Position numbers and translations under genes: made by a program. This document shows, in pieces, positions 1,221 through 63,739 of a stretch of 64,000 bases of DNA. Positions within the stretch are counted from its first letter, which is position 1; every line of letters starts with the position of its first letter. The stretch comes from Nematopogon swammerdamellus (Eukaryota; Arthropoda; Insecta; Lepidoptera; Adelidae), in assembly GCA_946902875.1 (NCBI GenBank), contig OX336349.1:16143891-16207890 (forward strand), written 5' to 3'. The notes under the pieces were generated by a model, which saw only the letters and a program-made list of their open reading frames with translations, did no database searches and was not told the origin of the DNA.

Positions 1221-1280
1221 TTCAGTCGGTCAGCGTGTAAGCGCCCACTGCTGGACATACGCCTCTCCAATTATTCTCTA

Positions 1281-1706
<426 letters not shown>

Positions 1707-9380: not shown

Positions 9381-9928
9381 TATACCGGTCGGAGATACCT
9401 ACACGGCAGATCAACCGGGGCAACTCTCTGGGCTCCACTGACTAAGGAGCCCCACTAGGCACTGGCCAGCTGAACAGTCTTTCGTAAGAGGTGGTTATTT
9501 TTTGTTTTTGGATGAGTGTGTGTCTGAAAATTAATTATTTGTCTTGTACAACTTTTTGTCTTGTACAACATTGTCTATTATATTTTTGTTATAGAAATTT
9601 ACTAAAGAAATGAAACATTAAAAATGTTGTGTAATAATAAAAAAAAATCTAAGATTGGATTCAGTTTCATGTACAGAACATGTCAGCACAGATTACTAAA
9701 TAGTTACTTCGTAACAGATAAATCACTCCATAGAAAAAGTTCCATACCTACGGCTTTAATAGCCTACTGCTTCACGATCGAGTATAAAGTGCATTATTGC
9801 TTTGCAGCTGCGCGCATTTGCGTGGGCGAGCGTGTAGGTATCTTTCGCGCGGCTGACGAATTTCTACTGAATTACACCGCCCGCGGTGCATCGGGCGGTA
9901 GGTAGTTAGCGCGCGCAAGTACATAGAG

Positions 9929-10470
9929 CGGGCAACGAGGAGGCCGACTGCCTGGCTAGTAAGGCTTGTACATCTGATGCAATAATTAGTCAATGTAAAA
10001 CTTTCTGCACTGACCACCTACCCGAAATAAAAAAGAACTGTTATAATATGTGGAAGCAATATTTCGATGAGAGATCAGTGCAGAAAGGTATATGGTACAG
10101 AACAATGCAGTGTGAACCGTTAAAAATTCCCTGGTTTGCCAAGAGCGACAGACCGAGAACAGAAATTGTAATGGGCCTGAGACTACGATCTGGACACATT
10201 CCAACAAATAAGACAATGTACCTTATGAAGATAGCACAATCACCCAACTGTAGCATATGTGGGATAGAAGAGGACCTACTCCACATACTGTTGGAATGTG
10301 CCCGGAACCAAGAACTGAGGCAGAAGCTATTGAGAGACTTAAGAACTGACAGACTCAACCTGTTTTTTAAAGTACATGAAGCCTTGGGGCGAGCTCAGGG
10401 GGAGGAGTTTGAATTCATACTAAGTTTTTTTGTAAAGTCACAGGCGTTGAATCGTGCTGAAGTACAATAA
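9929..10470 (+). pseudogene. LINE C-terminal fragment: RNase H end and zinc-knuckle-like tail
   Basis: The open frame begins in GNEEADCLASKA, the last RNase H motif of I/R1-type non-LTR retrotransposons, and runs to CSICGIEEDLLHILLEC, the C-x2-C...H...C tail typical of these polymerases, then stops at 10470. The reverse transcriptase part is missing. Confidence 0.75.
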
Positions 10471-13132: not shown

Positions 13133-14300
13133 CCGGTCGGAGATACCTACACGGCAGATCAACCGGGGCAACTCTCTGGGCTCCACTGACTAAGGAGCCC
13201 CACTAGGCACTGGCCAGCTAAACAGTCTTTCGTAAGAGGTGGTTATTTTTTGTTTTTGGATGAGTGTGTGTCTGAAAATTAATTATTTGTCTTGTACAAC
13301 TTTTTGTCTTGTACAACATTGTCTATTATATTTTTGTTATAGAAATTTACTAAAGAAATGAAACATTTTTAGGTAATAATAAAAAAAAATCTAAGATTGG
13401 ATTCAGTTTCATGTACAGAACATGTCAGCACAGATTACTAAATAGTTACTTCGTAACAGATAAATCACTCCATAGAAAAAGTTCCATACCTACGGCTTTA
13501 ATAGCCTACTGCTTCACGATCGAGTATAAAGTGCATTATTGCTTTGCAGCTGCGCGCATTTGCGTGGGCGAGCGTGTAGGTATCTTTCGCGCGGCTGACG
13601 AATTTCTACTGAATTACACCGCCCGCGGTGCATCGGGCGGTAGGTAGTTAGCGCGCGCAAGTACATAGAGCGGGCAACGAGGAGGCCGACTGCCTGGCTA
13701 GTAAGGCTTGTACATCTGATGCAATAATTAGTCAATGTAAAACTTTCTGCACTGACCACCTACCCGAAATAAAAAAGAACTGTTATAATATGTGGAAGCA
13801 ATATTTCGATGAGAGATCAGTGCAGAAAGGTATATGGTACAGAACAATGCAGTGTGAACCGTTAAAAATTCCCTGGTTTGCCAAGAGCGACAGACCGAGA
13901 ACAGAAATTGTAATGGGCCTGAGACTACGATCTGGACACATTCCAACAAATAAGACAATGTACCTTATGAAGATAGCACAATCACCCAACTGTAGCATAT
14001 GTGGGATAGAAGAGGACCTACTCCACATACTGTTGGAATGTGCCCGGAACCAAGAACTGAGGCAGAAGCTATTGAGAGACTTAAGAACTGACAGACTCAA
14101 CCTGTTTTTTAAAGTACATGAAGCCTTGGGGCGAGCTCAGGGGGAGGAGTTTGAATTCATACTAAGTTTTTTTGTAAAGTCACAGGCGTTGAATCGTGCT
14201 GAAGTACAATAAAAAATCAATATAGTTACTATGGGGCTGGCATAGCCAGGAATGGCTAAAGCCCTAAACAAAATAAAGATTAAAAAAAAAAAAAAAAAAA
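13133..14300 (+). mobile_element. Second copy of the LINE-tail composite
   Basis: Nearly identical to 9386-10560. Here the LINE piece (13671-14300) is flanked by GTACATAGAG at 13661-13670 and 14301-14310, so it sits as an insertion in the 3700-4130-type element, whose sequence resumes (TGCGTGAGGC) after the poly(A). Confidence 0.8.
13671..14212 (+). pseudogene. LINE C-terminal fragment, second copy
   Basis: Same truncated RNase H/zinc-knuckle reading frame as at 9929-10470, with no amino-acid difference noticed over the 140-codon ORF starting MWKQYF. Confidence 0.75.
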
Positions 14301-26383: not shown

Positions 26384-28060
26384 TAGGCAGCCGGCGCGGG
26401 TGTCTGTGCCCAATACTTCAACGGAAGATCAGACACAGCCAATAACACCATTCCTCGCGAAACCACGCTCAGAGAGGCGCCATGCCGGCTATGAGGCGGA
26501 CAAAAAGGTTGTCGTCTAATTTATTGACACGCCTTTTGAAGATTCCCAGGTTATAGGTGGTGGGGAACACACTCACCGGAAGACCGTTCCATATTTTCGC
26601 CGTTCGACACAGGAAAGATTTCGAAAAACGATGTGTTCTTAGTAGTTGGGTGTCAACAACATATGGATGTTCCGAGCGAGTCCGGAGGGTGTGGCGGAGA
26701 CGGATGGGGGCTGGAGGGATGAGAGAAGCCAATTCATCAGAGCAACGTCCATGGTAGTACCTATAGAACAGGCTAAGAGAACCGATTGTTCGCCTGTGGC
26801 CCAATGATTCAAGTCTCTCCGTGAGCTTGGGATCACCAATTAGACGGATAGCACGGCGCTGGATAGAGTCCAAGGACGCCAATAAGTAAAGAGGGCATCC
26901 ACCCCACAGATGGCTACAGTACTCCATCACCGGGCGAACTTGCGCTTTATATAGCATAAGGAGCTGCGCCGGTGAGAAGAACCGTCTGCTGCGGTAGAGG
27001 ACGCCTAATTTCCTAGAGGCAAGTGTGGCTTTGGACTCTATGAAACCCCTAAAACCCACATCCTTGGTCAATTCCACGCCCAGGAGGTCCAATTTGTCAT
27101 TGTTAGGTATGGCCGTACCCTGGAACGTAGCTTGGAAGGGAAACCGGTCGGCCTTGGTAGAGAAGGCGCATGCTTGAGTTTTGCTGACGTTGAAATCAAC
27201 AAGGCTCTCGCGGCCCCAGGAGGCTACCTTAACGAGAACATCGTCGACTCTGTTAACTGTTTGACGTCGAGCATCGTCAATGCGCACCTCTCTAGCAGTC
27301 CAGTCTTTAGCGTAACCCTCGTCGGCGGTGCTGTCGTCTGCATAACTGTGAATGTTACCTAGGCACAGTAGGTCGTTAATAAATAACAGGAATAATGTAG
27401 GCGACAGCACCGAGCCCTGTGGAACGCCAGCGTTTATTGGGAAATCTACCGATTTTGCACCGTCAATGGTTACAAATATGGATCGGTCTCCCAAGAAGCT
27501 GGCGATCCAATTGCAGAGGGATGAGGGAATACCGTAGACCGGAAGCTTGCTGAGGAGACCACGGTGCCAAACGCGATCAAAAGCCTTAGATATGTCTAAG
27601 GCAACTGCCAGCGACTCTCCAAAGTTGTCTAATCTCTCAGCCCACACATGCGTGACATATGCTAGAATATCTCCTGATGATCGCTGTTTACGGAAACCGT
27701 ACTGCTTGTCATCAAGGAGTTTACAAGTTTCTAGATATGTCAGAAGCTGGGTGTTAATAACCCGCTCCATAACCTTGCAGAGGAGAGAGGTTATCGCAAT
27801 AGGCCGATAGTTTTTGGGGTCAGCAGAGTTGCCTTTTTTGGGCACTGGTTGGACCGCAGCCTTTCTCCAGCAAGCAGGCACGATACCGGAGGAAAAAGAG
27901 CGCCTAAAGAGACGAGTGAGGATAGGTGTCAATTCAAGTGCACACACTTTAAGCACACGCGCAGGAACGCCGTCAGGACCACTACTCTTGGAGGCGTCCA
28001 ACTGACGTAGACTTTTGAAGACCGCCCTGTTATGGAATCGTACCTCACGCATCGATTTAC
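26384..28060 (-). mobile_element. LINE, CR1/Jockey type, 5'-truncated
   Basis: Minus-strand element ending in a 16-base poly(A) (poly-T at 26368-26383). Its 5' edge is near 28060, where an in-frame stop precedes the ORF. The endonuclease is missing, so it is dead on arrival, but the reverse transcriptase frame is unbroken, indicating recent insertion. Confidence 0.9.
26469..28052 (-). CDS. LINE reverse transcriptase (527 aa, partial)
   Basis: Fingers KSSGPDGVPARVLK and PVPKKGNSADPKNYRPIAI, motif A VALDISKAFDRVWH, motif B GVPQGSVLSPTLFLLFIND, motif C SYADDST, and thumb LGVELTKDVGF and YCSHLWGGCPLYLLASLD are all present in order. The C-terminus has no RNase H, as in CR1/Jockey elements. The Asp residues of motifs A and C needed for polymerisation are intact. 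The chosen Met is only the first in the truncated frame; the natural protein would start further upstream. Confidence 0.9.
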   Translation of the reverse strand: MREVRFHNRAVFKSLRQLDASKSSGPDGVPARVLKVCALELTPILTRLFRRSFSSGIVPACWRKAAVQPVPKKGNSADPKNYRPIAITSLLCKVMERVINTQLLTYLETCKLLDDKQYGFRKQRSSGDILAYVTHVWAERLDNFGESLAVALDISKAFDRVWHRGLLSKLPVYGIPSSLCNWIASFLGDRSIFVTIDGAKSVDFPINAGVPQGSVLSPTLFLLFINDLLCLGNIHSYADDSTADEGYAKDWTAREVRIDDARRQTVNRVDDVLVKVASWGRESLVDFNVSKTQACAFSTKADRFPFQATFQGTAIPNNDKLDLLGVELTKDVGFRGFIESKATLASRKLGVLYRSRRFFSPAQLLMLYKAQVRPVMEYCSHLWGGCPLYLLASLDSIQRRAIRLIGDPKLTERLESLGHRRTIGSLSLFYRYYHGRCSDELASLIPPAPIRLRHTLRTRSEHPYVVDTQLLRTHRFSKSFLCRTAKIWNGLPVSVFPTTYNLGIFKRRVNKLDDNLFVRLIAGMAPL

Positions 28061-29130
28061 CAGCGTTTTCTCTATTCTAGGGCTCAAGTAGCTTAATTTC
28101 TTGCTTAGCTGGCTCTCTATTAGTCGAAGGTTGGCTAAAAATGTTATTTTGTTTTTTTTTAGTCCCGCGACTTGACATAACACAATATTTTTATCGCTCG
28201 ACCACTACGTTTAATTTTTTTCACCACTTTGCTTTTGAAGTTATACTTCTTTAGTCACATTATGAAAATATGTTATAAAAATGGTGAGTAAATTCAGAAA
28301 AAACGTCATCGGCATCGTCATCGTCATCATCACCGCATACAAATTATTAAAGGGTGGAGGGGCAGGGGGGAAGTTATCCTATTACTTTAAGTGTAAACTT
28401 GTATATATATATGCAATTTGTTTCTCGGGAACGGCTCTAACGATTTGGATGGAATTTAGTATTTAGATAATGTATTTTTTTTTTAAGTTTATCAAGATAG
28501 GTGTAGACGCCGAGCGAAGCTCGGTCGCCCAGGTACTACTTATTTAAGCCCGTTATGGAAATATGTTATGAAATGGGATTAAACTCAGAAAAAATATCAT
28601 CGTCATCGTCACCGCATAAATATTACGTCACGCCAAAGAAGTATAACTTCTGACACGTACGTCGTACACGCATGTTTTTTTATAGGTTAGTAACTACTAT
28701 CTACATTCATTGGGAATTTGGGGTGCATGTAAAAATGCTTTCAGTAAATAAACAGTCGGGTAAAAAATAAGCAAGTATTTATGGTTTTCTAAATATAACT
28801 TTCTTTTGTCTGTTCCTCACAATGCCATACATGAACTATGCGTGTAGTCCATCCACGAAACCGAGATTCAGCCATAAATATACTGACTCTGCGCTGAGCC
28901 ACCGATCACCGAACAAGAGCATGAGTGCTGTGCTAAATCAATTACTTATCTATACTTATTTAAAATCGTAAGGGCAAAAAAATCTGTACATTAAATAGGT
29001 ATTCAGAAAAAAACCAACTAGGGCGTCTTTAAATGAAAAACTGAACATTTTAAGAACAGTTTTAAAAATGTTGTTTCTTGCATCACGCAAAAACCACTAA
29101 ACAGATTTCGAAGAAACTTCCGGCTACAGC
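28061..29130. other. Non-coding; repeat pieces only
   Basis: A family H repeat at 28370-28535 ends GCCGAGCGAAGCTCGGTCGC. The segments 28255-28335 and 28550-28625 are direct copies (AAAATATGTTAT...CATCGTCATCG) on either side of it. Confidence 0.5.
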
Positions 29131-36259: not shown

Positions 36260-36323
36260 ATGACGTCAGCTGTGTGGAGGTTCAGTGCATTGGTGTTAGT
36301 GCTGGCCATGTTCGGTGCTCAAG
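36260..36323 (+). CDS. i-type lysozyme Lyz1, exon 1 (signal peptide)
   Basis: The exon opens with MTSAVWRFSALVLVLAMFGA, a charged start followed by a hydrophobic core, a typical secretory signal peptide, then a GTAACT donor at 36324. It ends in phase 1 (64 nt). Joining to exon 2 gives ...GAQ|ASAQEPAERG, with cleavage plausible near the AQA/ASA residues. In-frame upstream methionines exist but lie at or before the predicted start site, so this ATG is preferred. Intron 1 is about 11.1 kb. Confidence 0.8.
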
Positions 36324-47433: not shown

Positions 47434-47640
47434 CATCGGCGCAAGAGCCCGCGGAGCGCGGCCTGGTGAAGACTCCGGTGACGGACGTGTGCCTTGGCTG
47501 CATCTGTCAGGCGGTCTCCGGCTGCAAGCAGAACGTGCAGTGCGAGGGCGACGTGTGCGGACTCTTCCGCATCACCTGGGCCTACTGGGCCGACTCCGGC
47601 AAACCCACCAACGGCGGAGAGTCGCCTGACGCGCCGGACG
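47434..47640 (+). CDS. i-type lysozyme Lyz1, exon 2 (destabilase domain, first half)
   Basis: Starting after TATAG at 47429-47433, the exon encodes VCLGCICQAVSGC, then CEGDVCGLFRITWAYWADSG and KPTNGGESPDAPD, and ends at a GTACGT donor. The cysteine pattern CLxCIC...SGC...C...CGLF is diagnostic of the invertebrate-type lysozyme/destabilase family. In clam i-type lysozyme the catalytic pair is Glu in the CNVESGC segment and Asp before the CG; here the Glu position is Val (CQAVSGC), while the Asp before VCG is kept. Loss of the Glu is usual in insect members and argues against muramidase activity. Length 207 nt, phase 1 at both ends. Confidence 0.93.
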
Positions 47641-47745
47641 GTACGTGTGCTCACATATCATCTGTCAGGCGGCCACAGGCTGCGAGCGAGATGTGTGCAG
47701 AACTTTCCGCATCACCTGGGCCCACCGGACAGCGGGCTGCTTAAG
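47641..47745 (+). pseudogene. Decayed partial second copy of Lyz1 exon 2
   Basis: Directly after the exon 2 donor, a degenerate copy of the exon core restarts at an offset of 158 bp: CATCTGTCAGGCGG recurs at 47659, followed by a recognisable GGCTGC...GTGTGC and TTCCGCATCACCTGGGCC. It carries deletions and has no acceptor of its own, so it should be spliced out with intron 2. Confidence 0.7.
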
Positions 47746-50308: not shown

Positions 50309-50382
50309 CTTACCGGAACTGCGTGACGGAACCGTACTGCGCCGCGCGCGCCGTGCAGGGCTACATGGCTCGCTTCGGACAG
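50309..50382 (+). CDS. i-type lysozyme Lyz1, exon 3
   Basis: A 74-nt exon between TTGCAG and GTCAGT. With the one carried-over base it encodes 25 residues, AYRNCVTEPYC then AARAVQGYMARFGQ, the conserved i-type segment with CxxxxxC and the QGYMxR/KFG helix. It ends in phase 0. A 32-bp minisatellite starts about 35 bp after the donor. Confidence 0.92.
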
Positions 50383-50414: not shown

Positions 50415-50868
50415 GTGATTTCCATGACGGAAAAACACATATCGTATCGACCTCGTGTCCATGACGGAAATACACATATCAACCACGTGTCCATGACGGA
50501 AATACACATATCAACCTCGTGTCCATGACGGATATACACATATCAACCTCGTACCCATGACGGAAATACACATATCAACCTCGTGTCCATGACGAAAATA
50601 CACATATCAACCTCGTGTCCATGACGGAAATACACATATCAACCTCGTGTCCATGACGGAAATACACATATCAACCTCGTGTCCATGACGGAAATACACA
50701 TATCAACCTCGTGTCCATGACGGAAATACACATATTATCAACCTCGTGTCCATGACGGAAATACACATATCAAACTCGTGTCCATGACGGAAATACACAT
50801 ATCAAACTCGTGTCCATGACGGAAATACACATATCAACCTCATGTCCATGACCCTCATTCCTTGACTA
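50415..50868 (+). repeat. 32-bp minisatellite in Lyz1 intron 3
   Basis: About 14 copies of a 32-bp unit containing CCATGACGGAAATACACATA, nearly identical in the centre and degenerate at the left end; one unit has a 3-base expansion. A stray related piece occurs at 51240-51300, suggesting a once larger or mobile repeat. Confidence 0.95.
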
Positions 50869-51663
50869 TTATTAATCTTTGACTAATGTTATTGTATCAA
50901 ATTATTTTATTTTTAACGCAGCTTATCTGTGATTTAGGATAGGGATATTGACAATTCTATTGATGCTATTGTACCATGTTTTAAAAATTACATTGACAAG
51001 TTTATTAACGCTAATTTAAGTAGATAGTAGTAGTATTAGGTAAGTGCAGTAGTAGTCTATAAGCATAAGATAGCTTGTTTTTGTCTTTTATCTGGTTCTG
51101 CGCAGCCCTTGTCATTGTTTGTCATTGTTTCCATTGTGTTTAATTATTGTTTTTCATTGTTGTTACATTTCGAAAGATAACGAATTCAAGTGCAAAATTT
51201 ATTTGCCTACGAATGATAATAAAAACACCACCTAAACACCACGTAAATACACAATCAAACTCGTGCCCATGATAGAAATGCACATATAAAACTCGAAATG
51301 AGTAAAATAGCGGTGTTTGTCGATACGAGGCAAAACCGATACCTCACATACTCAAGGTCTTACTCATTCATTACTGATTGGACACCAGCCGTTCGAAATC
51401 GTATTTCCAGGAACCTTTTTAATATTTCACACAACAGTATGTCAACAATTCTCTGAATTATCTGAGGAAAACCACCGCCGCTGGAGGCAGTTTACAGATC
51501 CGGATGTACATTATAATTAATTTAGCTTATTTCTGTTCATTATTCAACTTGAGATAGCCATAATTGTGATCATTTAAGTAGTTATCTCACAGTTCGAACA
51601 CGTTTAACAAAGTGGAAGATGAACTGAAACCGTCTGTCAAATTATGATGACGTCTTGTGGCAG
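50869..51663. other. Lyz1 intron 3 remainder
   Basis: Non-coding apart from a stray minisatellite unit at 51240-51300; the frame at 51317-51520 has no recognisable motif. Confidence 0.5.
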
Positions 51664-51762
51664 GACTGCAACGGCGACGATGAGATCAACTGCTACGGCC
51701 ACATGGCGATCCACAAGCTGGGCGGCTACGCTGCTCCGGCGAACTGTCCTCCAGTGCGTTAA
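51664..51762 (+). CDS. Lyz1 partial exon-4 copy 1 (alternative or cryptic last exon)
   Basis: Preceded by a full acceptor (GTCTTGTGGCAG), this 33-codon frame reads DCNGDDEINCYGHMAIHKL, then GGYAAPANCPPVR and stop. It matches the first two thirds of the real exon 4 but lacks one G in the TACGGCTGC stretch, which changes GYGC to GYAAPANC and brings a stop. Splicing exon 3 to this acceptor would give a shorter lysozyme lacking the C-terminal VFNQC segment. Whether it is used is unknown. Confidence 0.55.
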   Translation, partial: DCNGDDEINCYGHMAIHKLGGYAAPANCPPVR

Positions 51763-51785
51763 CTAATGATTATGTCTTGTGGCAG

Positions 51786-51884
51786 GACTGTAACTGCGAC
51801 GGCGAGATCAACTGCTACGACCACATGGCGTTCCACAAGCTGGGAGGCTTCGCTGCTCCGGCGAACTGTCCTCCCGTGCGTTAA
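51786..51884 (+). CDS. Lyz1 partial exon-4 copy 2 (alternative or cryptic last exon)
   Basis: Exactly 122 bp after copy 1, with its own CAG acceptor. It reads DCNCDGEINCYDHMAFHKL, then GGFAAPANCPPVR and stop, and shares the one-base deletion of copy 1. Gly4 of the calcium-loop pattern is changed to Cys here. Confidence 0.55.
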   Translation, partial: DCNCDGEINCYDHMAFHKLGGFAAPANCPPVR

Positions 51885-51907
51885 CTAACGATTATGTCTT
51901 GTGGCAG

Positions 51908-52057
51908 GACTGCAACGGCGACGGCGAGATCAACTGCTACGACCACATGGCGATCCACAAGAAGGGCGGTTACGGATGTTCCGGCGAACTGCCGTACCAG
52001 TATGTCAACGTCTTTAACCAGTGCATCGCGGCGGTGGCCGCCAACCAACAGGGATAG
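51908..52057 (+). CDS. i-type lysozyme Lyz1, exon 4 (terminal)
   Basis: This 50-codon exon begins DCNGDGEINCYDHMAIHKK, continues GGYGCSGELPYQYVNVFNQC and ends AAVAANQQG-stop. It is the third and only complete member of a 122-bp repeat series. Assembled with exons 1-3 the product is 164 aa, typical for insect i-type lysozymes. The first 12 residues fit the EF-hand/dockerin loop pattern (D1, N3, D5, G6, I8, D12). Candidate poly(A) signals AATAAA occur at 52468-52473 and 52611-52616. Confidence 0.92.
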   Translation, partial: DCNGDGEINCYDHMAIHKKGGYGCSGELPYQYVNVFNQCIAAVAANQQG

Positions 52058-55918: not shown

Positions 55919-56095
55919 CCTTGTACATCTCGAACCTGGATGAGTCGTGCTTCCGCTGCTTGTGTCACGTGGTAGGCTGCGACATCTCGCACACATGCTC
56001 CGATGGCTACTGCGGACCCTTCTACATCTCCAGGCCTTACTGGACGGATGCCGGCAGACCCACCCTGCCCGATGACGACCCGGAGAGACCTGAAG
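55919..56095 (+). CDS. i-type lysozyme Lyz2, exon 2
   Basis: After CTCCCCAG the exon encodes ALYISNLDESCFRCLCHVVG, then a cysteine pair region and YCGPFYISRPYWTDAGRP, ending PDDDPERPE before GTGAGT. The CxxCLC...GC...CGPF...PYW framework identifies a diverged i-type lysozyme. The segment homologous to CNVESGC is CHVVGC, one residue shorter and without Glu. 177 nt, phase 1 both ends. Confidence 0.9.
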
Positions 56096-56139
56096 GTGAG
56101 TGGACCTAGGTAGTTGTGAACCGCTAACGCATCTAGACA

Positions 56140-56475
56140 CAGATGTCGTCTCAAATCACGCTGAATCCCGACAATCGGGGTAAGCAGAATAATCGGTGTT
56201 GTGCTGCAAGAACTCTGGTAAATTACAGCACAACACAGACAACCACGTTTCGCAAAATATCGGGACAAGATATCTATCAAGCAGCATGTAAAGCACGAAG
56301 GAAGACCCACCTGCTGCATATCTCGCTGGAAGTACCGTGCCAAGGTGAGAGGTGGCGATCCTGTCGCCCTTTAGCACGGCATCTCGCCCTTATCCCTTAT
56401 CGCCTTTACGACATGCACGGGAAGAGATGCAGTGGGGCTATTCTTTTTACGTACCGGCCCCACACGGTACTTCAG
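56140..56475 (-). repeat. Family D repeat in Lyz2 intron 2
   Basis: GACAATCGGGGTAAGCAGAA through GGCCCCACACGGTAC, the most complete minus-strand copy. Confidence 0.7.
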
Positions 56476-56670
56476 ATCGTGTGGTTGTGGTTATAAGTTC
56501 TCAAAACTCCTTCTTTCTTCTTCTGCTGCCAAATTGACTAGCAAACCACATGGACATATGATCTCAGATGGGGACACCATTCGTATAAAAAGTGTATTCT
56601 CAATTATTTCGGAAAGAGAGAAAATGTTTCTTGTCTGGAAGGTTTTCCTTACCCTTGTTTTCTGTTGCAG

Positions 56671-56744
56671 CATTCTCGGATTGTGCAAGGGATTACAACT
56701 GCTCCATCAGGATTGTGGAGAGTTACTTGGCGCGCTACGGGATG
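56671..56744 (+). CDS. i-type lysozyme Lyz2, exon 3
   Basis: A 74-nt exon between TTGCAG and GTATAA, the same length as in Lyz1 and Lyz3. It encodes AFSDCARDYNCSIRIVESYL followed by ARYGM. The short ESYLxRYG helix replaces QGYMxRFG. Confidence 0.88.
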
Positions 56745-56786
56745 GTATAACTACAATACTCAAATCTTTACGTATATTTTTTTATG

Positions 56787-57025
56787 TAATCCGGTATGGG
56801 TGGCTGAGTCGGAGGGGCCAAAACACATGCTCCGACCAGCCAAAATTACCTCCGAGAAGGTAGGTGCCATACCGGAGACTTCCCAGGATTGCTGGCTTTA
56901 CTGGACTAGAGGAGAAAACAACCGAGGCTCGTATGCGGCCATCTTACATCCAGTACGTTGGTACCAAACCAGTCGGCAACAATTTGAGCCTACCGCACCT
57001 AGTAAGGGGCAAGGGATACTTCAAG
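56787..57025 (-). mobile_element. tRNA-derived SINE, 3' half, in Lyz2 intron 3
   Basis: Begins 42 bp after the exon 3 donor: CGGTATGGGTGGCTGAGTCG through GCACCTAGTAAGGGGC. Confidence 0.75.
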
Positions 57026-57100
57026 GAGTTGAGTTCTTGAAGGACGTATCCATTTCAAAATGGTCAAAGGAGAAGTTTGCTTCTATACCTAACCTAAACT

Positions 57101-57491
57101 AACTTTTTTTTTTATGAATACTGACACGGTTGGCTACATCACCTACAGCGTCCGTGATGTCAGCCCATAACACCGGGTGAACTAGATGCAATGTCAGTGC
57201 TTCCCCCTTTGATCGTGCCGGCTACACTGAACTGGTCGGAAAACACAAGCCATTTACATAGCCGTTTAGACCGACGTTTCATTCAGTGCGATGGTACCAA
57301 CCCGGGCGGGTTAAACCCTACCACCAAGTAAGATTAGGAGGGAAGGGACCTACAGTTTTACGAGGAATCCGAACCTCGGTCAGCCTCCAACGGTCAGCGG
57401 TCACCCATCCAAGTACTGACCGCACCCAGCGTTGCTTAACATTCAATAGCGACAGTTGACTGTCTGCACCACTGAGCTATCGAGGCTGACA
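57101..57491 (-). mobile_element. 5S-SINE, full length, young subfamily
   Basis: Third near-identical member with 6007-6397 and 53104-53503. Confidence 0.88.
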
Positions 57492-57699
57492 ATAACTTAA
57501 CCTAAAACCTACACAACCTAACATGGTTAGCTAGGCACATCACGTATTACACTCGTGCGTGATTCTATTACACTATTTATTTCTATCGAAACTAGATTCA
57601 AATGTCAGCGCTTACCTTGGTTTGGTCGTGCCTACACTGGCACTGGCCGTAAAATACCGAAAAAATAATTCCATTATGTATTAGGTTAATAGTACCTTG

Positions 57700-57850
57700 G
57701 GCGACCAAGCTTCGCTCAGCGTCTACATATGTCTCGTCTATCATATCAAAATTATAAACTAAAAAAAACTTTATCTAAATACAAAATTTCATCCAAATCG
57801 TTAGAGCCGTTTCCGAGAAACCAATTATATAATATTATATAATATAGGTT
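57700..57850 (-). repeat. Family H repeat
   Basis: GGGCGACCAAGCTTCGCTCA and CATCCAAATCGTTAGAGCCG, inverted relative to 28370-28535. Confidence 0.65.
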
Positions 57851-57909
57851 TTGCTCAGTTAAAGTGCATGATCAAGGATTCTGTACATTCTACACCTATG
57901 CATACACTA

Positions 57910-58262
57910 TGTTTTTTTATTGACACTGTTGGCTCATCATCACTTACAACATCCGTGATATCAGCCAATAACACCTTGGTGAACATAGTGCATGTCGGTG
58001 CTTCCATTCAGTCGCGGCGGCTACACTGAACTGGACGGAAAACACGAACTATTTACATAGCCGTTTCAACTGACCTTTCATTTAATGCGGCGGTACCACC
58101 CCGGGCGGGTTAAACCCCTAGTAAGGTAAGAAGTGTAGTAAGTACACAGTTTTACGTGGAATTCGAACCACGGTCAGCCTCCAACGGTTGAGCGATCACC
58201 CATCCAAGTACTGAACGTGCCCAGGTGTGCTTATGATCACGACCACAGTCGACCGACCGCAA
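57910..58262 (-). mobile_element. 5S-SINE, older copy
   Basis: Contains ATCACCCATCCAAGTACTGA, the box C complement, and a normal 3' end. Confidence 0.8.
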
Positions 58263-58324
58263 GTAGGTTTACATGTAAGTTGTAAACCTACTTCTGCAAA
58301 GTAATCGTTATCAGACCAAATTAC

Positions 58325-58605
58325 GTACGGTGTGGGGCCGGTACATATAAAGAGTAACCCCACTGCATCTCCCCCCTGCATGTAGTAAAAGGCGACTAAG
58401 GGATAAAGAGAAGATGCCGTGCTAAATGGCGATAGGTTAGCCACCTCTCACCTAAGCACGGTTCTTACGCCGAGTCATGCAGAAGGTGGGTCTTCGAGCC
58501 TGCTGCTTGATAGTTATCTTGATCTCTAGGACTCCTTGCAGCACAATACGATTTATTCTTCTTATCCCGATTGTCGTGTGGTATGTATGATATAAATTAT
58601 ACGTC
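58325..58605 (+). repeat. Family D repeat in Lyz2 intron 3
   Basis: GTGTGGGGCCGGTACATATA through TATCCCGATTGTCGTG. Confidence 0.7.
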
Positions 58606-58639
58606 GAATGTTTCTTGCATAACCACATCCGAGGGGACA

Positions 58640-59135
58640 GTCACTTAGGGAATCTGGTGTACAATTGTTTGGTAATATCAGGTAACCTTAGGTGGGAGTC
58701 CGAGTAATCTGGAAATCTTAGGCGGTCCCGCGTATCCACAGGGAATCTAGGAATCCCAAGGGAATCATTCGGAATTGATCAAAGTCTTGGTAATCTCAGG
58801 TAATCTTAGGTGGCAGTCCGAGGAATCTGGAAATCTTAGGCAGTCTCGAGTAATCCCTGGGAATCTAGGAATCCCAGGGAATCTAGGAATCCCAAAGAAA
58901 TCATTAGCAAATCCGATCAAAATCTTGGTAATCTCAGGTAATCTTAGGTAATCCTCTAGGAATCTTTGGTAATCCCTAGGAATCTTTGGTAGTCCTTAGA
59001 AATCTTACGAAATCCTAGAATCTTTGGTAATCCTAGAAATCTTTGGTGAACCCTTAGAAATCTTTGGTAATCCTTTAGAAATATTTGGACGTCCTTAAAG
59101 AAACTTGGAAATCCCTAAGAATCTTTGGAATCTTA
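58640..59135 (+). repeat. Degenerate AATC-rich tandem repeat in Lyz2 intron 3
   Basis: A 500-bp stretch built from variants of GGTAATCTTAGG and GGAATCCC, spaced roughly 10-20 bp. It ends about 120 bp before Lyz2 exon 4, the same intron that is repetitive in Lyz1 and Lyz3. Confidence 0.8.
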
Positions 59136-59255
59136 CCTACAATCTGGTGTACAATTTTTGCTCTAGTGACTAACCCCTCGACTACATCCATATTCCACAT
59201 GTGGACACTCGGCGAAGTGAAACGAAGTAATCTTTTATGTGGTCTGTGTTGATAG

Positions 59256-59432
59256 GACTGCAACGAGGACGGCGTCACAGACTGCTTCGACTACATGATG
59301 ATCAACATTAATGGCGGCGGCGTGGACTGTAGCGAGCCCCTCGAACTCACGGCCGTCGGACGAGATCAGCTGGCCCGCTTCAACCAGTGCAGTTTCGACG
59401 AGTATCAAATCGACATTAGAACAGCATTGTAA
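59256..59432 (+). CDS. i-type lysozyme Lyz2, exon 4 (terminal)
   Basis: After GATAG the exon encodes DCNEDGVTDCFDYMMININ, then GGGVDCSEPLELT and a tail ending YQIDIRTAL-stop, 58 codons. The calcium-loop pattern (D1, N3, D5, G6, D12) is retained with Thr at position 8. No tandem copies are present in this gene. The product is 159 aa. A foldback repeat begins about 95 bp after the stop. Confidence 0.9.
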   Translation, partial: DCNEDGVTDCFDYMMININGGGVDCSEPLELTAVGRDQLARFNQCSFDEYQIDIRTAL

Positions 59433-60350: not shown

Positions 60351-60547
60351 GTTAGAATGTTTTATTTTTGAGATATGTAAATTTGCAAAAGAAAAACCTT
60401 TCTTTGCAGCATTCGATCTGAAGTTATAGAGCAACAAGTTTTCATTATAACTGAATTTTGGTTCTTTTGAGAAGTAATAAAATGGTAACATGTCTTACGA
60501 TTAGATTAATTTCAAAGAATCATCAACTTTTAGTGTTGGATAATAAC

Positions 60548-60642
60548 TGACATGGCACCTAGTTCACCCGTTGTTATGGGCTGACATCACGGATGTTGCA
60601 GGTGAAGTTGGCGTCAACGCTATCAGGTTCCATAAAAAAAAT
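60548..60642 (+). mobile_element. 5S-SINE 3' fragment
   Basis: TGACATGGCACCTAGTTCAC through GGTTCCATAAAAAAA. Confidence 0.7.
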
Positions 60643-61246: not shown

Positions 61247-61393
61247 CTATCCACGTGCAGTGACAGCTTCAGCGATGCACTGGTTGAAGACATTGACGTA
61301 CTGGAACGGCGGATCTCCAGTGCAGCCGTATCCGCCCAGCTTGTGGATCGCCATGTGGTCGTAGCAGTTGATCTCACCGTCGCCGTTGCAGTC
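61247..61393 (-). CDS. i-type lysozyme Lyz3, exon 4 (terminal)
   Basis: The minus-strand exon follows GTGGCAG and encodes DCNGDGEINCYDHMAIHKL, then GGYGCTGDPPFQYVNVFNQC and AEAVTARG-stop (48 codons). It is the downstream-most and only complete copy of the 122-bp series; its TACGGCTGC keeps the G that the other copies lack. A variant poly(A) signal ATTAAA lies at 61103-61108 on the minus strand. Confidence 0.9.
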   Translation of the reverse strand, partial: DCNGDGEINCYDHMAIHKLGGYGCTGDPPFQYVNVFNQCIAEAVTARG

Positions 61394-61416
61394 CTGCCAC
61401 AAGACATCATCGTTAG

Positions 61417-61515
61417 TTAACGCACTGGGGGACAGTTCGCCGGAGCAACGTAGCCGCCCAGCTTGTAGATCGCCATGTGTTCGTAGCAGTTGGTCTCGCC
61501 GTCGCTATTGCAGTC
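61417..61515 (-). CDS. Lyz3 partial exon-4 unit 1 (nearest the terminal exon)
   Basis: Reads DCNSDGETNCYEHMAIYKL, GGYVAPANCPPVR, stop, after a GTGGCAG acceptor. This is a Y-type unit (YEH...IYKL). Loop position 8 is Thr instead of Ile. Confidence 0.5.
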   Translation of the reverse strand, partial: DCNSDGETNCYEHMAIYKLGGYVAPANCPPVR

Positions 61516-61538
61516 CTGCCACAAGACATAATCATTAG

Positions 61539-61637
61539 TTAACGCACTGGGGGACAGTTCGCTGGAGCAGCGTAGCCGCCCAGCTTGTGGATCGCCATGT
61601 GGTCGTAGCAGTTGATCTCGCCGTCGCTATTGCAGTC
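61539..61637 (-). CDS. Lyz3 partial exon-4 unit 2
   Basis: Reads DCNSDGEINCYDHMAIHKL, GGYAAPANCPPVR, stop, with GTGGCAG acceptor. H-type unit. Confidence 0.5.
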   Translation of the reverse strand, partial: DCNSDGEINCYDHMAIHKLGGYAAPANCPPVR

Positions 61638-61660
61638 CTGCCACAAGATATAATCATTAG

Positions 61661-61759
61661 TTAACGCACTGGGGGACAGTTCGCCGGAGCAGCGTAGCCG
61701 CCCAGCTTGTTGATCGCCATGTGGTCGTAGCAGTTGATCTCGCCGTCGCCGTTGCAGTC
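61661..61759 (-). CDS. Lyz3 partial exon-4 unit 3
   Basis: Reads DCNGDGEINCYDHMAINKL, GGYAAPANCPPVR, stop, with GTGGCAG acceptor. Confidence 0.5.
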   Translation of the reverse strand, partial: DCNGDGEINCYDHMAINKLGGYAAPANCPPVR

Positions 61760-61782
61760 CTGCCACAAGACATCACTATGAG

Positions 61783-61881
61783 TTAACGCACTGGAGTACA
61801 GTTCGCCGGAGCAGCGTAGCCGCCCAACTTGTGGATCGCCATGTGGTCGTAGCAGTTGATCTCGCCGTCGCCGTTGCAGTC
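61783..61881 (-). CDS. Lyz3 partial exon-4 unit 4
   Basis: Reads DCNGDGEINCYDHMAIHKL, GGYAAPANCTPVR, stop. The acceptor is GTGGTAG, still a valid AG. Confidence 0.5.
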   Translation of the reverse strand, partial: DCNGDGEINCYDHMAIHKLGGYAAPANCTPVR

Positions 61882-61904
61882 CTACCACAAGACATCATCG
61901 TTAG

Positions 61905-62003
61905 TTAACGCACTGGGGGACAGTTCGCCGGAGCAGCGTAGCCTCCCAGCTTGTAGATCGCCATGTGTTCGTAGCATTTGATCTCGCCGTCGCCGTTGCA
62001 GTC
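61905..62003 (-). CDS. Lyz3 partial exon-4 unit 5
   Basis: Reads DCNGDGEIKCYEHMAIYKL, GGYAAPANCPPVR, stop. The acceptor is GTGGGAG, weaker than CAG. Y-type unit. Confidence 0.45.
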   Translation of the reverse strand, partial: DCNGDGEIKCYEHMAIYKLGGYAAPANCPPVR

Positions 62004-62026
62004 CTCCCACAAGACATCACTATGAG

Positions 62027-62125
62027 TTAACGCACTGGAGTACAGTTCGCCGGAGCAGCGTAGCCGCCCACCTTGGGGATCGCCATGTGGTCGTAGCAGT
62101 TGATCTCGCCGTCGCTATTGCAGTC
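62027..62125 (-). CDS. Lyz3 partial exon-4 unit 6
   Basis: Reads DCNSDGEINCYDHMAIPKV, GGYAAPANCTPVR, stop, with GTGGCAG acceptor. Confidence 0.5.
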   Translation of the reverse strand, partial: DCNSDGEINCYDHMAIPKVGGYAAPANCTPVR

Positions 62126-62148
62126 CTGCCACAGGACATCATTATTAG

Positions 62149-62247
62149 TTAACGCATTGGAGGACAGTTCGCCGGAGCAGCGTAGCCGCCCAGCTTGTGG
62201 ATCGCCATGTGGTCGTAGCAGTTGATCTCGCCGTCGCCGTTGCAGTC
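62149..62247 (-). CDS. Lyz3 partial exon-4 unit 7
   Basis: Reads DCNGDGEINCYDHMAIHKL, GGYAAPANCPPMR, stop, with GTGGCAG acceptor. Confidence 0.5.
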   Translation of the reverse strand, partial: DCNGDGEINCYDHMAIHKLGGYAAPANCPPMR

Positions 62248-62270
62248 CTGCCACAAGACATCACTATGAG

Positions 62271-62369
62271 TTAACGCACTGGAGTACAGTTCGCCGGAGC
62301 AGCGTAGCCTCCCAGCTTGTAGATCGCCATGTGTTCGTAGCAGTTGATCTCGCCGTCGCTATTGCAGTC
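62271..62369 (-). CDS. Lyz3 partial exon-4 unit 8
   Basis: Reads DCNSDGEINCYEHMAIYKL, GGYAAPANCTPVR, stop, with GTGGCAG acceptor. Y-type unit. Confidence 0.5.
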   Translation of the reverse strand, partial: DCNSDGEINCYEHMAIYKLGGYAAPANCTPVR

Positions 62370-62392
62370 CTGCCACAGGACATCATCATTAG

Positions 62393-62491
62393 TTAACGCA
62401 CTGAAGGACAGTTCGCCGGAGCAGCGTACCCTCCCAGCTTGTGGATCGCCATATGGTCGTAGCAGTTGATCTCGCCGTCGCCGTTGCAGTC
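62393..62491 (-). CDS. Lyz3 partial exon-4 unit 9
   Basis: Reads DCNGDGEINCYDHMAIHKL, GGYAAPANCPSVR, stop. The acceptor is TTGGCAG. Confidence 0.5.
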   Translation of the reverse strand, partial: DCNGDGEINCYDHMAIHKLGGYAAPANCPSVR

Positions 62492-62514
62492 CTGCCAAAA
62501 GACATCGCCATAAG

Positions 62515-62812
62515 TTAACGCACTGGAGGAGAGTTTGCCGGAGCAGCGTAGCCGCCCAGCTCGTGGATCGCCATGTGGTCTAGCAGTTGATCTCGCCGTC
62601 GTCACCGTTGCAGTCCTGCCACAAGATATCATCGTTAGTTAACGCACTGGGGAACAGTTCGCCGGAGCAACGTAGCCGCCCAGCTTTTCGATCTTCATGT
62701 GGTTCTATAGCAGTTGATTTCGCCGTCGTCGTTGTAGCTCTGTCACAAGACATCATTAGTTGACGCACTGGAGGACGGTTCGCCGAAACAACGTAGCCGC
62801 TAAGACTTTTTT
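62515..62812 (-). pseudogene. Lyz3 decayed exon-4 units 10, 11 and a fragment
   Basis: The two units nearest exon 3 are broken. The unit with acceptor at 62616 has a 3-base insertion and a 1-base deletion giving a stop right after INCY's position (CTAGACC). The unit with acceptor near 62741 has changed its first codons and reads NCYRTT after a 2-base insertion. A further truncated tail ends near 62812. The acceptor AGs survive, so these could still act as decoy splice sites. Confidence 0.6.
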
Positions 62813-62860: not shown

Positions 62861-62934
62861 CTGTCCATATTTTTCCATATAGCCCTGCACGGCGCGCGCG
62901 GCGCAGTAAGGCTCATTCGCGCAGTTCTGGTATG
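62861..62934 (-). CDS. i-type lysozyme Lyz3, exon 3
   Basis: A 74-nt minus-strand exon between TTGCAG (62935-62940) and a GTATTT donor. It encodes AYQNCANEPYC then AARAVQGYMEKYGQ, very close to Lyz1 exon 3. Confidence 0.92.
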
Positions 62935-63136
62935 CTGCAACATAGAACAAAATATGAAATTAGTAAGACTCTCGAGGTGCTATAGCCCTCTTCCAACTAA
63001 AATGCTACGATCGTAGCTATAAACGTTTTATGAACCTGGACATCGGGCATGTGCTCCAGAAGGGCGTAATACCCGAAATCGACAAGCATGATCGAAAATT
63101 TGTAAGTGTGGAAGAGACGACAGACGTGTTTGTCGT

Positions 63137-63289
63137 CAGCCCAGTACGCCCAGGTGAGATGGAACAAGCCGCAGTGGTCACCCTCGCATTGCTTCAGCTT
63201 GCAGCCTGACACGGCCAGGCAGATGCAACGCAGACACGTGTCCGTCGCTGGGGTCTTAGTGAGTCCTGCTGCACGCTCTTGCGCTGACA
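63137..63289 (-). pseudogene. Lyz3 exon-2 copy C (truncated, no donor)
   Basis: A third copy, again 219 bp further on, is open through CLRCICLAVSGC and LTWAYWAD, but then diverges near 63137 and lacks the GKPT segment and donor site. It cannot splice to exon 3 as a normal exon. Confidence 0.8.
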
Positions 63290-63307
63290 CTGAAAAGCTC
63301 AACTTAC

Positions 63308-63508
63308 CATCAGATTCGTCCGGCGCCTGCCTGCCAACGGTAGGTTTGCCGCCATCAGCCCACTACGCCCAGGTGAGATGGGACAAGCCGCAGTGGTCAA
63401 CCTCGCATTGCTTCAGCTTGCAGCCTGACACGGCCTGGCAGATCCATCGCAGACACGTGTCCGTCGCTGGGGTCTTGATGAGTCCTGCTGCACGCTCTTG
63501 CGCGGACA
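63308..63508 (-). pseudogene. Lyz3 exon-2 copy B (nonsense mutation)
   Basis: A second full exon-2 copy lies exactly 219 bp downstream of copy A, with acceptor CTTTTCAG and donor GTAAGT intact. It has a TAC-to-TAG stop in the TWAYW segment, Cys-to-Trp in CLRWIC, Gly-to-Val in CEVDH and Phe-to-Ser in GLSHL. Because 219 is divisible by three, copy A reads in frame into copy B if unspliced, but the stop ends that frame. Confidence 0.85.
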
Positions 63509-63526
63509 CTGAAAAGCTCAACTTAC

Positions 63527-63727
63527 CATCAGATTCGTCCGGCGCCTGCCCGCCAATAGTAGGTTTGCCGCCATCAGCCCAGTACGCCCAGGTGAGATGG
63601 AACAAGCCGCAGTGGTCACCCTCGCATTTCTTCAGCTTGCAGCCCGACACGGCCTGGCAGATGCATCGCAGACACGTGTCCGTCACGGGGGTCTTGATGA
63701 GTCCTGCTGCACGATCTTGGGCTGACA
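63527..63727 (-). CDS. i-type lysozyme Lyz3, exon 2 (copy A, intact)
   Basis: After CTTTTCAG the exon encodes VSAQDRAAGLIKTPVTDTC, LRCICQAVSGCKLKKCEGDH, CGLFHLTWAYWADGG and KPTIGGQAPDESD, with donor GTAAGT at 63526. It has all family cysteines but Val instead of the catalytic Glu. 201 nt, phase 1 both ends. The upstream signal-peptide exon is beyond the right edge. The donor is only 18 bp from the acceptor of copy B. Confidence 0.9.
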
Positions 63728-63739
63728 CTGAAAAGGCAA

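Follow-up and report, generated by a model that had tools for sequence, protein, structure and literature searches.

Arrays of partial last-exon copies with 3' splice signals in two i-type lysozyme genes of Nematopogon swammerdamellus

Minisatellites and VNTRs can cross exon borders, and copies of a last exon arranged in the manner of Drosophila pip are usually under coding constraint and have their own transcript end, the latter not universally. Drosophila pip, and also the 3' variable regions of PGRP-LC, have tandemly duplicated, mutually exclusive terminal exons, as outlined in PMC9013439. No splice array was described for i-type lysozymes in the open-access literature that we searched by titles and abstract openings. 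Here we describe two related arrays in the window, that is, the whole analysed stretch of 64,000 nucleotides of contig OX336349.1. In these genes, repeated acceptors with last-exon sequence follow a single donor, which is the layout known from pip.

Lysozyme genes and arrays in the window

Three i-type lysozyme (destabilase, PF05497) genes were identified in the window, A (+), C (+) and B (-), and a fourth, D (+), starts about 8 kb past the window end. Where named, the relatives of these lysozymes were insects, with Lepidoptera prominent among the best matches. With exons 2-4 joined, gene B matched the PF05497 profile (E 3.4e-38, 130.9 bits, cut-off 26.2; the query carried one extra leading Ser that is absent from the true exon join), and its shortened form scored 119.8 bits over profile positions 2-99 of 116. 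Gene A was placed in the family by its relatives: among the matches listed, 118 proteins matching the shortened A product carry PF05497. In gene B all four exons can be joined into a complete protein (160 aa), every intron beginning with GT and ending in AG, and the same holds for gene A (164 aa). The features of both genes are as follows.

36260-36323 (+): gene A exon 1, with a signal-like peptide
47434-47640 (+): gene A exon 2
50309-50382 (+): gene A exon 3
51640-51907 (+): two units of the B-type array before the gene A last exon, exon starts 51664 and 51786
51908-52057 (+): gene A true last exon, ending ...VNVFNQCIAAVAANQQG stop
67377-67317 (-): gene B exon 1, outside the window (given in window coordinates), with start, signal-like peptide and GTAACT donor
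63527-63727 (-): gene B exon 2, intact copy 1, with acceptor CAG and donor GTAAGT
63309-63512 (-): gene B exon 2, second copy, interrupted by a stop in frame
63135-63293 (-): gene B exon 2, third copy, truncated and lacking the donor found in the other copies
62861-62934 (-): gene B exon 3, donor GTATTT from 62860
61394-62812 (-): array of eleven 122-bp units plus one partial unit, lying after gene B exon 3 and before the true last exon
about 62800-62752 (-): partial unit, adjoining the 62739 unit
62640-62739 (-): exon part of the 5'-most unit, frame-shifted, ending after SYNDDGEINCYRTT
62516-62615 (-): second unit, exon part, likewise frame-shifted and stopping early after DCNGDDGEINC
61417-62491 (-): nine open units, exon starts 62491 to 61515, with AAPANC.PVR-like ends
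61247-61393 (-): gene B true last exon (exon 4), ending ...VNVFNQCIAEAVTARG stop

Exon 1 of gene B resembles that of gene A. Exon 2 of gene B is triplicated in tandem (63135-63731, -, period 219), in the same duplication style as exon 4, and gene A has a degenerate partial second copy directly after its exon 2 (47648-47737, +). Gene C lies at 55942-59390 (+) with repeat arrays in its intron 3 (58852-59132); genes C and D are alike in exon 2 (ESCFRCLCHVVGCD) and have no exon 4 array.

The Glu of the CIC..ESGC segment is presumably the catalytic position. In comparisons with known structures, gene B has Val (3ab6, 4pj2) or Ser (8bbu) at the position of this Glu, so that by alignment gene B would not carry the catalytic Glu of a muramidase-active i-type lysozyme. 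Exon 2 of both A and B encodes a CICQAVSGC segment without the Glu aligned as catalytic elsewhere (the alignment being that of gene B), and six dipteran relatives have C(I/L)CEA at the corresponding segment. For leech destabilase, a Glu34/Asp46 dyad is reported in PMC10126035.

The preliminary description of this locus had a 122-bp unit recurring about 11 times ahead of the gene B last exon, and the period, frame, ends and coordinates given there were all borne out: TRF gave a period of 122 with 12.1 copies and 89% matches over 61322-62800, and a repeat search gave families of 10 and 12 copies at a spacing of 121-124. The exon parts of the units start (-) at 62739, 62615, 62491, 62369, 62247, 62125, 62003, 61881, 61759, 61637 and 61515, and the true last exon at 61393. 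In an open unit, the AG is followed by the first 66 nt of exon 4 and by a tail of 33 nt that closes with a stop. Nine units had also been said to stay open to a common AAPANC-x-PVR-like end, and 9 of the 11 indeed read open through 32 codons to AAPANC(P/T)(P/S)(V/M)R-stop, with VAPANC instead of AAPANC at 61515. The predicted products are of 144 aa for the open B units and of 126 and 123 aa for the two units nearest exon 3 (62739 and 62615), which are the decayed ones. Both gene A units are open to AAPANCPPVR (predicted products 147 aa). The gene A units, the partial unit near 62739 and the exon 2 triplication in gene B are further finds. A 251-base probe of the last exon gave at least 14 DNA matches in the assembly, and all those listed were in genes A and B.

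The first acceptor in gene A, 51664, is the native one, and no yTnAy motif places its A within 12-55 nt upstream of it; the acceptors at 51786 and 51908 are array-made. No native acceptor remains in gene B, whose true last exon uses an array-made one, as in gene A.

Several other elements were observed in the window. A 32-bp minisatellite (13.2 copies, 50421-50852) is close to the start of gene A intron 3, and an interspersed repeat of about 95 bp at 60546-60642 has ten other copies of at least 92 bp on both strands. A 186-aa ORF is present twice within 4 kb (9910-10470 and 13652-14212, +), presumably as copies of a mobile element. The 535-aa open frame at 26469-28076 (-) resembles a non-LTR reverse transcriptase, and the frame at 1278-1706 (-) a PP2A-type phosphatase exon.

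Proposed birth of the unit and exchange between genes A and B

The ends of the units are frame-shifted copies of the normal C-terminus. Aligned to the normal exon, the unit tail has two one-base losses, one from TACGGNTG to TACGCTG and another near CTGTCC, and its end, GTTAAC, matches GTCAAC of the exon and then continues into the intron sequence TAATGATTATGTCTTGTGGCAG. The junction reads TTAACTAAY, in which the stop codon TAA adjoins a branch-like CTAAY. At the unit-end site the native A intron has TGTCAAATTATGATGACGTCTTGTGGCAG and the A exon ATGTCAACG; read directly from the sequence, TGTCAA is present at the native A intron end and the A exon has ATGTCAAC. Since the six-base likeness TGTCAA is found at both break points, a microhomology duplication fits, and we infer from this reading that the unit was born in such an event. 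A tandem duplication would have linked a site within the last exon (...TGTCAAC...) to a similar site in the intron immediately preceding it (...TGTCAAA...), and each copy would thereby carry an acceptor, the exon start and a new branch-point-like CTAAY beside the TAA stop at the junction. The two one-base losses would then have moved the copied tail into the AAPANC frame.

Units with an identical frame-shifted tail are common to A and B. The two genes are old paralogs; they differ at 48/174 sites in exon 2 (dS 1.67, dN 0.18), at 15/75 in exon 3 (dS 0.58, one acceptor base being taken into this comparison) and at 16/63 in the tail of the last exon. Over the first 66 nt of the true last exon, which the array covers, there are only 4 differences, a divergence below that of the tail (P 0.003) and of exon 2 (P 0.0002). 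The array part is therefore more alike between A and B than the remaining gene parts, as is expected of an intragenic satellite that evolves in concert. Between A units and open B units, 9-14 of 122 positions differ, which is about the level found among the open B units (3-16). This low divergence of the array part against the rest indicates that the array region was exchanged between the two genes, and such an exchange is needed whether the unit predates or postdates the A-B split. The units are too short for a well-resolved tree, and monophyly of the A rows is not rejected (p-AU 0.21), so the exchange rests on the divergence contrast. The unit would have been copied, in one direction or the other, between these inverted neighbour genes.

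Among the B units 62491-61515, neighbours differ by a mean of 10.4/122 and next-but-one units by 7.9/122, and three times in the array a CTCATAG head comes after a TGTACTCC tail. This two-unit rhythm and the variant crossing a unit boundary three times point to unequal exchange within B, which probably expanded the array to 11 units.

Splice signals and coding constraint

Every unit had been described as carrying an AG acceptor and a branch-like motif, and so it proved: the AG is retained in all 15 acceptors of A and B, and the 14 junction-made ones (12 in B, 2 in A) have a yTnAy motif whose A lies 17-20 nt upstream of the exon, this distance being only 17 nt in the 5'-most B unit (62739). The units thus look like complete 3' splice sites. 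The branch variants among the array acceptors are three CTCAT and one CTTAT, and there are two variants at position -3 and one shortened spacing. In units 62247, 62003 and 61759 (-), CTCATAG places an AG directly behind the putative branch A, a distance at which it could probably not act as an acceptor. Four splice positions are fixed among 24 columns of which 12 vary (P 0.047), so mild splicing constraint is possible; growth of the array from working copies would explain part of the retention, and the persistence of the splice signals appears marginally beyond chance. CTAAC, the form closest to the branch-point consensus TACTAAC, is present in 2/2 true exons against 2/12 of the other junction-made acceptors (P 0.066). 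No polyA hexamer (AATAAA or ATTAAA) was found inside either array.

Among competing 3' sites, the upstream one is preferred according to PMC9225289, and on that proximity rule some use of upstream units is likely. The acceptor of the true last exon is array-derived in A and B, so its own sequence gives little ground for preference. The preliminary description reasoned that the 5'-most AG usually wins and that the array would either shift output to truncated isoforms or act as a decoy. The first point agrees with this published preference; in gene B, however, the two 5'-most units are frame-shifted (126 and 123 aa), and no AAPANC would be made if the 5'-most acceptor wins.

We also considered chained units as cassette exons, with a GT after 90 nt in phase 0, and rejected them: in unit 62491, the one unit scored, that GT matches 5/9 donor positions and the best GT 6/9, and this reading would leave only 32 nt between neighbours. 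For docking/selector RNA pairing of the kind found with mutually exclusive exons, the duplex of unit 61759, the one unit tried, with exon 3 or with the 60-nt intron stub was equalled or undercut by 0.52 and 0.10 of 500 shuffles, respectively, so that in these two stretches it stayed within the shuffled range.

Coding constraint was evaluated on the 11 open units (nine in B and two in A, the two broken B units being left out); these were picked as open, and stop changes are thereby excluded from the test. They contain 27 distinct exon variants, 10 silent and 17 replacing, and random placement of the variants gave 8.0 silent and 18.1 replacing changes (P 0.22 for the number of silent ones) and 0.9 stops, with no stop in 37% of trials; no bias towards silent change was thus detected in these units. 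Under random substitution with the change number of each unit, 9.6 of the 11 units stay open on average, so the open frames say little about use, and the chance that all 11 remain open is about 0.22 (product of the per-unit values).

A total of 122 relatives were fetched, of which 80 matched the segment pattern (set without a requirement for Asp12 or His17) and 42 were left out. Asp12 and His17 are fixed in 80/80 of the matching relatives and retained in the true last exons of both A and B. In the units, His17 is changed in 5/9 open B units, and Asp12 in 3/9 open B units and 1/2 A units (4/11 in total). Neither PANC nor AAPA occurs in any of the 122 relatives fetched. The 102-aa array translation, used as a query for mis-called ORFs in other species, returned one candidate and none at E 0.01, and the exact 34-base unit tail had no match in viral contigs. 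Outside the signal peptide, 10 of the 11 open shortened forms have 11 cysteines against 12, and the A form from 51786 keeps 12.

Variable columns are fewer in the exon part (24/96) than in the intron part (12/24, P 0.024), and 7/30 columns vary in the unit-only tail (P 0.051). Conversion with the true exon can explain the low exon variation for the first 66 nt only and would not fully explain that of the unit-only tail. The full-length tail differs between A and B by 10 silent and 6 replacing changes (P 4e-5), which indicates that the normal C-terminal end was under selection, probably mostly before the array arose. The open frames and kept ends are no evidence of function in these units. Nothing in these sequence tests yet shows use or selection of the shortened protein ends, and the earlier interpretation is half right.

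Explanations and comparison with known systems

We consider it fairly probable that the array is an intragenic satellite, born by duplication, shared between A and B, grown in B and passed over in favour of the last acceptor. Splicing would still reach this acceptor often enough for normal lysozyme, and the upstream acceptors would probably yield some shortened or unstable transcripts, the peptides of which would lie outside selection.

That the units work as alternative last exons, with exon 3 spliced to them in regulated amounts to give a family of shortened AAPANC.PVR lysozymes, seems unlikely to us. Nine of 11 B units and both A units are open with acceptor signals kept, splicing to the native acceptor of A (51664) would now yield AAPANC, the published preference is for upstream 3' sites (PMC9225289) and the unit-only tail varies little (7/30 columns). 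However, silent bias is absent, residues fixed in the relatives are lost, 11 instead of 12 cysteines are found in 10/11 open shortened forms, AAPA or PANC occurs in 0/122 relatives, the two nearest B acceptors end early and both arrays are free of polyA hexamers.

Alternatively, the array could be a decoy or rheostat that occupies the spliceosome or routes transcripts to decay, its copy number setting the output of full-length lysozyme. The units keep splice signals while their coding part varies freely, and both true exons carry CTAAC (2/2 vs 2/12, P 0.066), but the signal tests are at or close to chance and only two genes with the array were found among the matches listed from the assembly search, and we regard this as quite improbable.

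We give even less credit to the reading of the array as a lesion, in which gene B, perhaps also A, no longer makes the full-length protein and keeps its last exon as a recent relic. Disturbance extends to exon 2 of B (the stop in copy 2, copy 3 without donor), many acceptors precede the last exon and the conservation of the tail would be mostly older than the array; against this, the exon 1-4 path is intact in B (160 aa) and A (164 aa). An assembly artefact is extremely improbable: assemblers can mis-size tandem arrays, but the open units differ from each other by 3-16/122, the unit recurs in another gene at a distance of about 10 kb and the 699-Mb assembly consists of 39 contigs.

A bolder form of the satellite reading, which we hold to be doubtful, is a self-spreading splice-acceptor satellite that makes a new branch point per junction, moves between paralogous immune genes and sets by its copy number the ratio of full-length to shortened lysozyme. 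If true, every added copy would be a complete 3' splice site with a stop.

The satellite that we favour would be a case of duplication creating a branch-like motif beside a stop and spreading between paralogs. The arrays are a natural series of near-identical acceptors (12 in B and 3 in A), which are usually studied in built constructs, and they offer a direct test ground for the proximity rule of acceptor choice. They also call for caution in taking open frames in tandem units as evidence of use.

With minisatellites and VNTRs the arrays have in common the tandem arrangement, higher-order units, edge decay and unequal exchange; the lysozyme units differ in that each has 3' splice signals together with a stop in the reading frame of the upstream exon. 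Among i-type lysozyme/destabilase genes of insects, the AAPANC end was found in 0/122 relatives. Dscam-type tandem exon duplication, as presented in the text seen of PMC6071210, is likewise born from tandem duplication of an exon with flanking intron, whereas the lysozyme unit is not an internal exon and its donor match is weak in the one unit scored (62491). Closer still are pip and PGRP-LC, which share, as far as PMC9013439 outlines them, head-to-tail homologous copies of the last exon, each with its own acceptor, after one upstream exon. Unlike these, the lysozyme units are of 122 bp, contain the first part of the exon only and a frame-shifted stop, and the array is common to two inverted paralogs. 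The units have no known use, and neither coding constraint (judged on the 11 open units) nor, with AATAAA and ATTAAA absent, a transcript end of their own is apparent in them. The nearest known kind is thus the tandemly duplicated terminal exon, of which the lysozyme array is a partial-exon variant with concerted evolution between paralogs.
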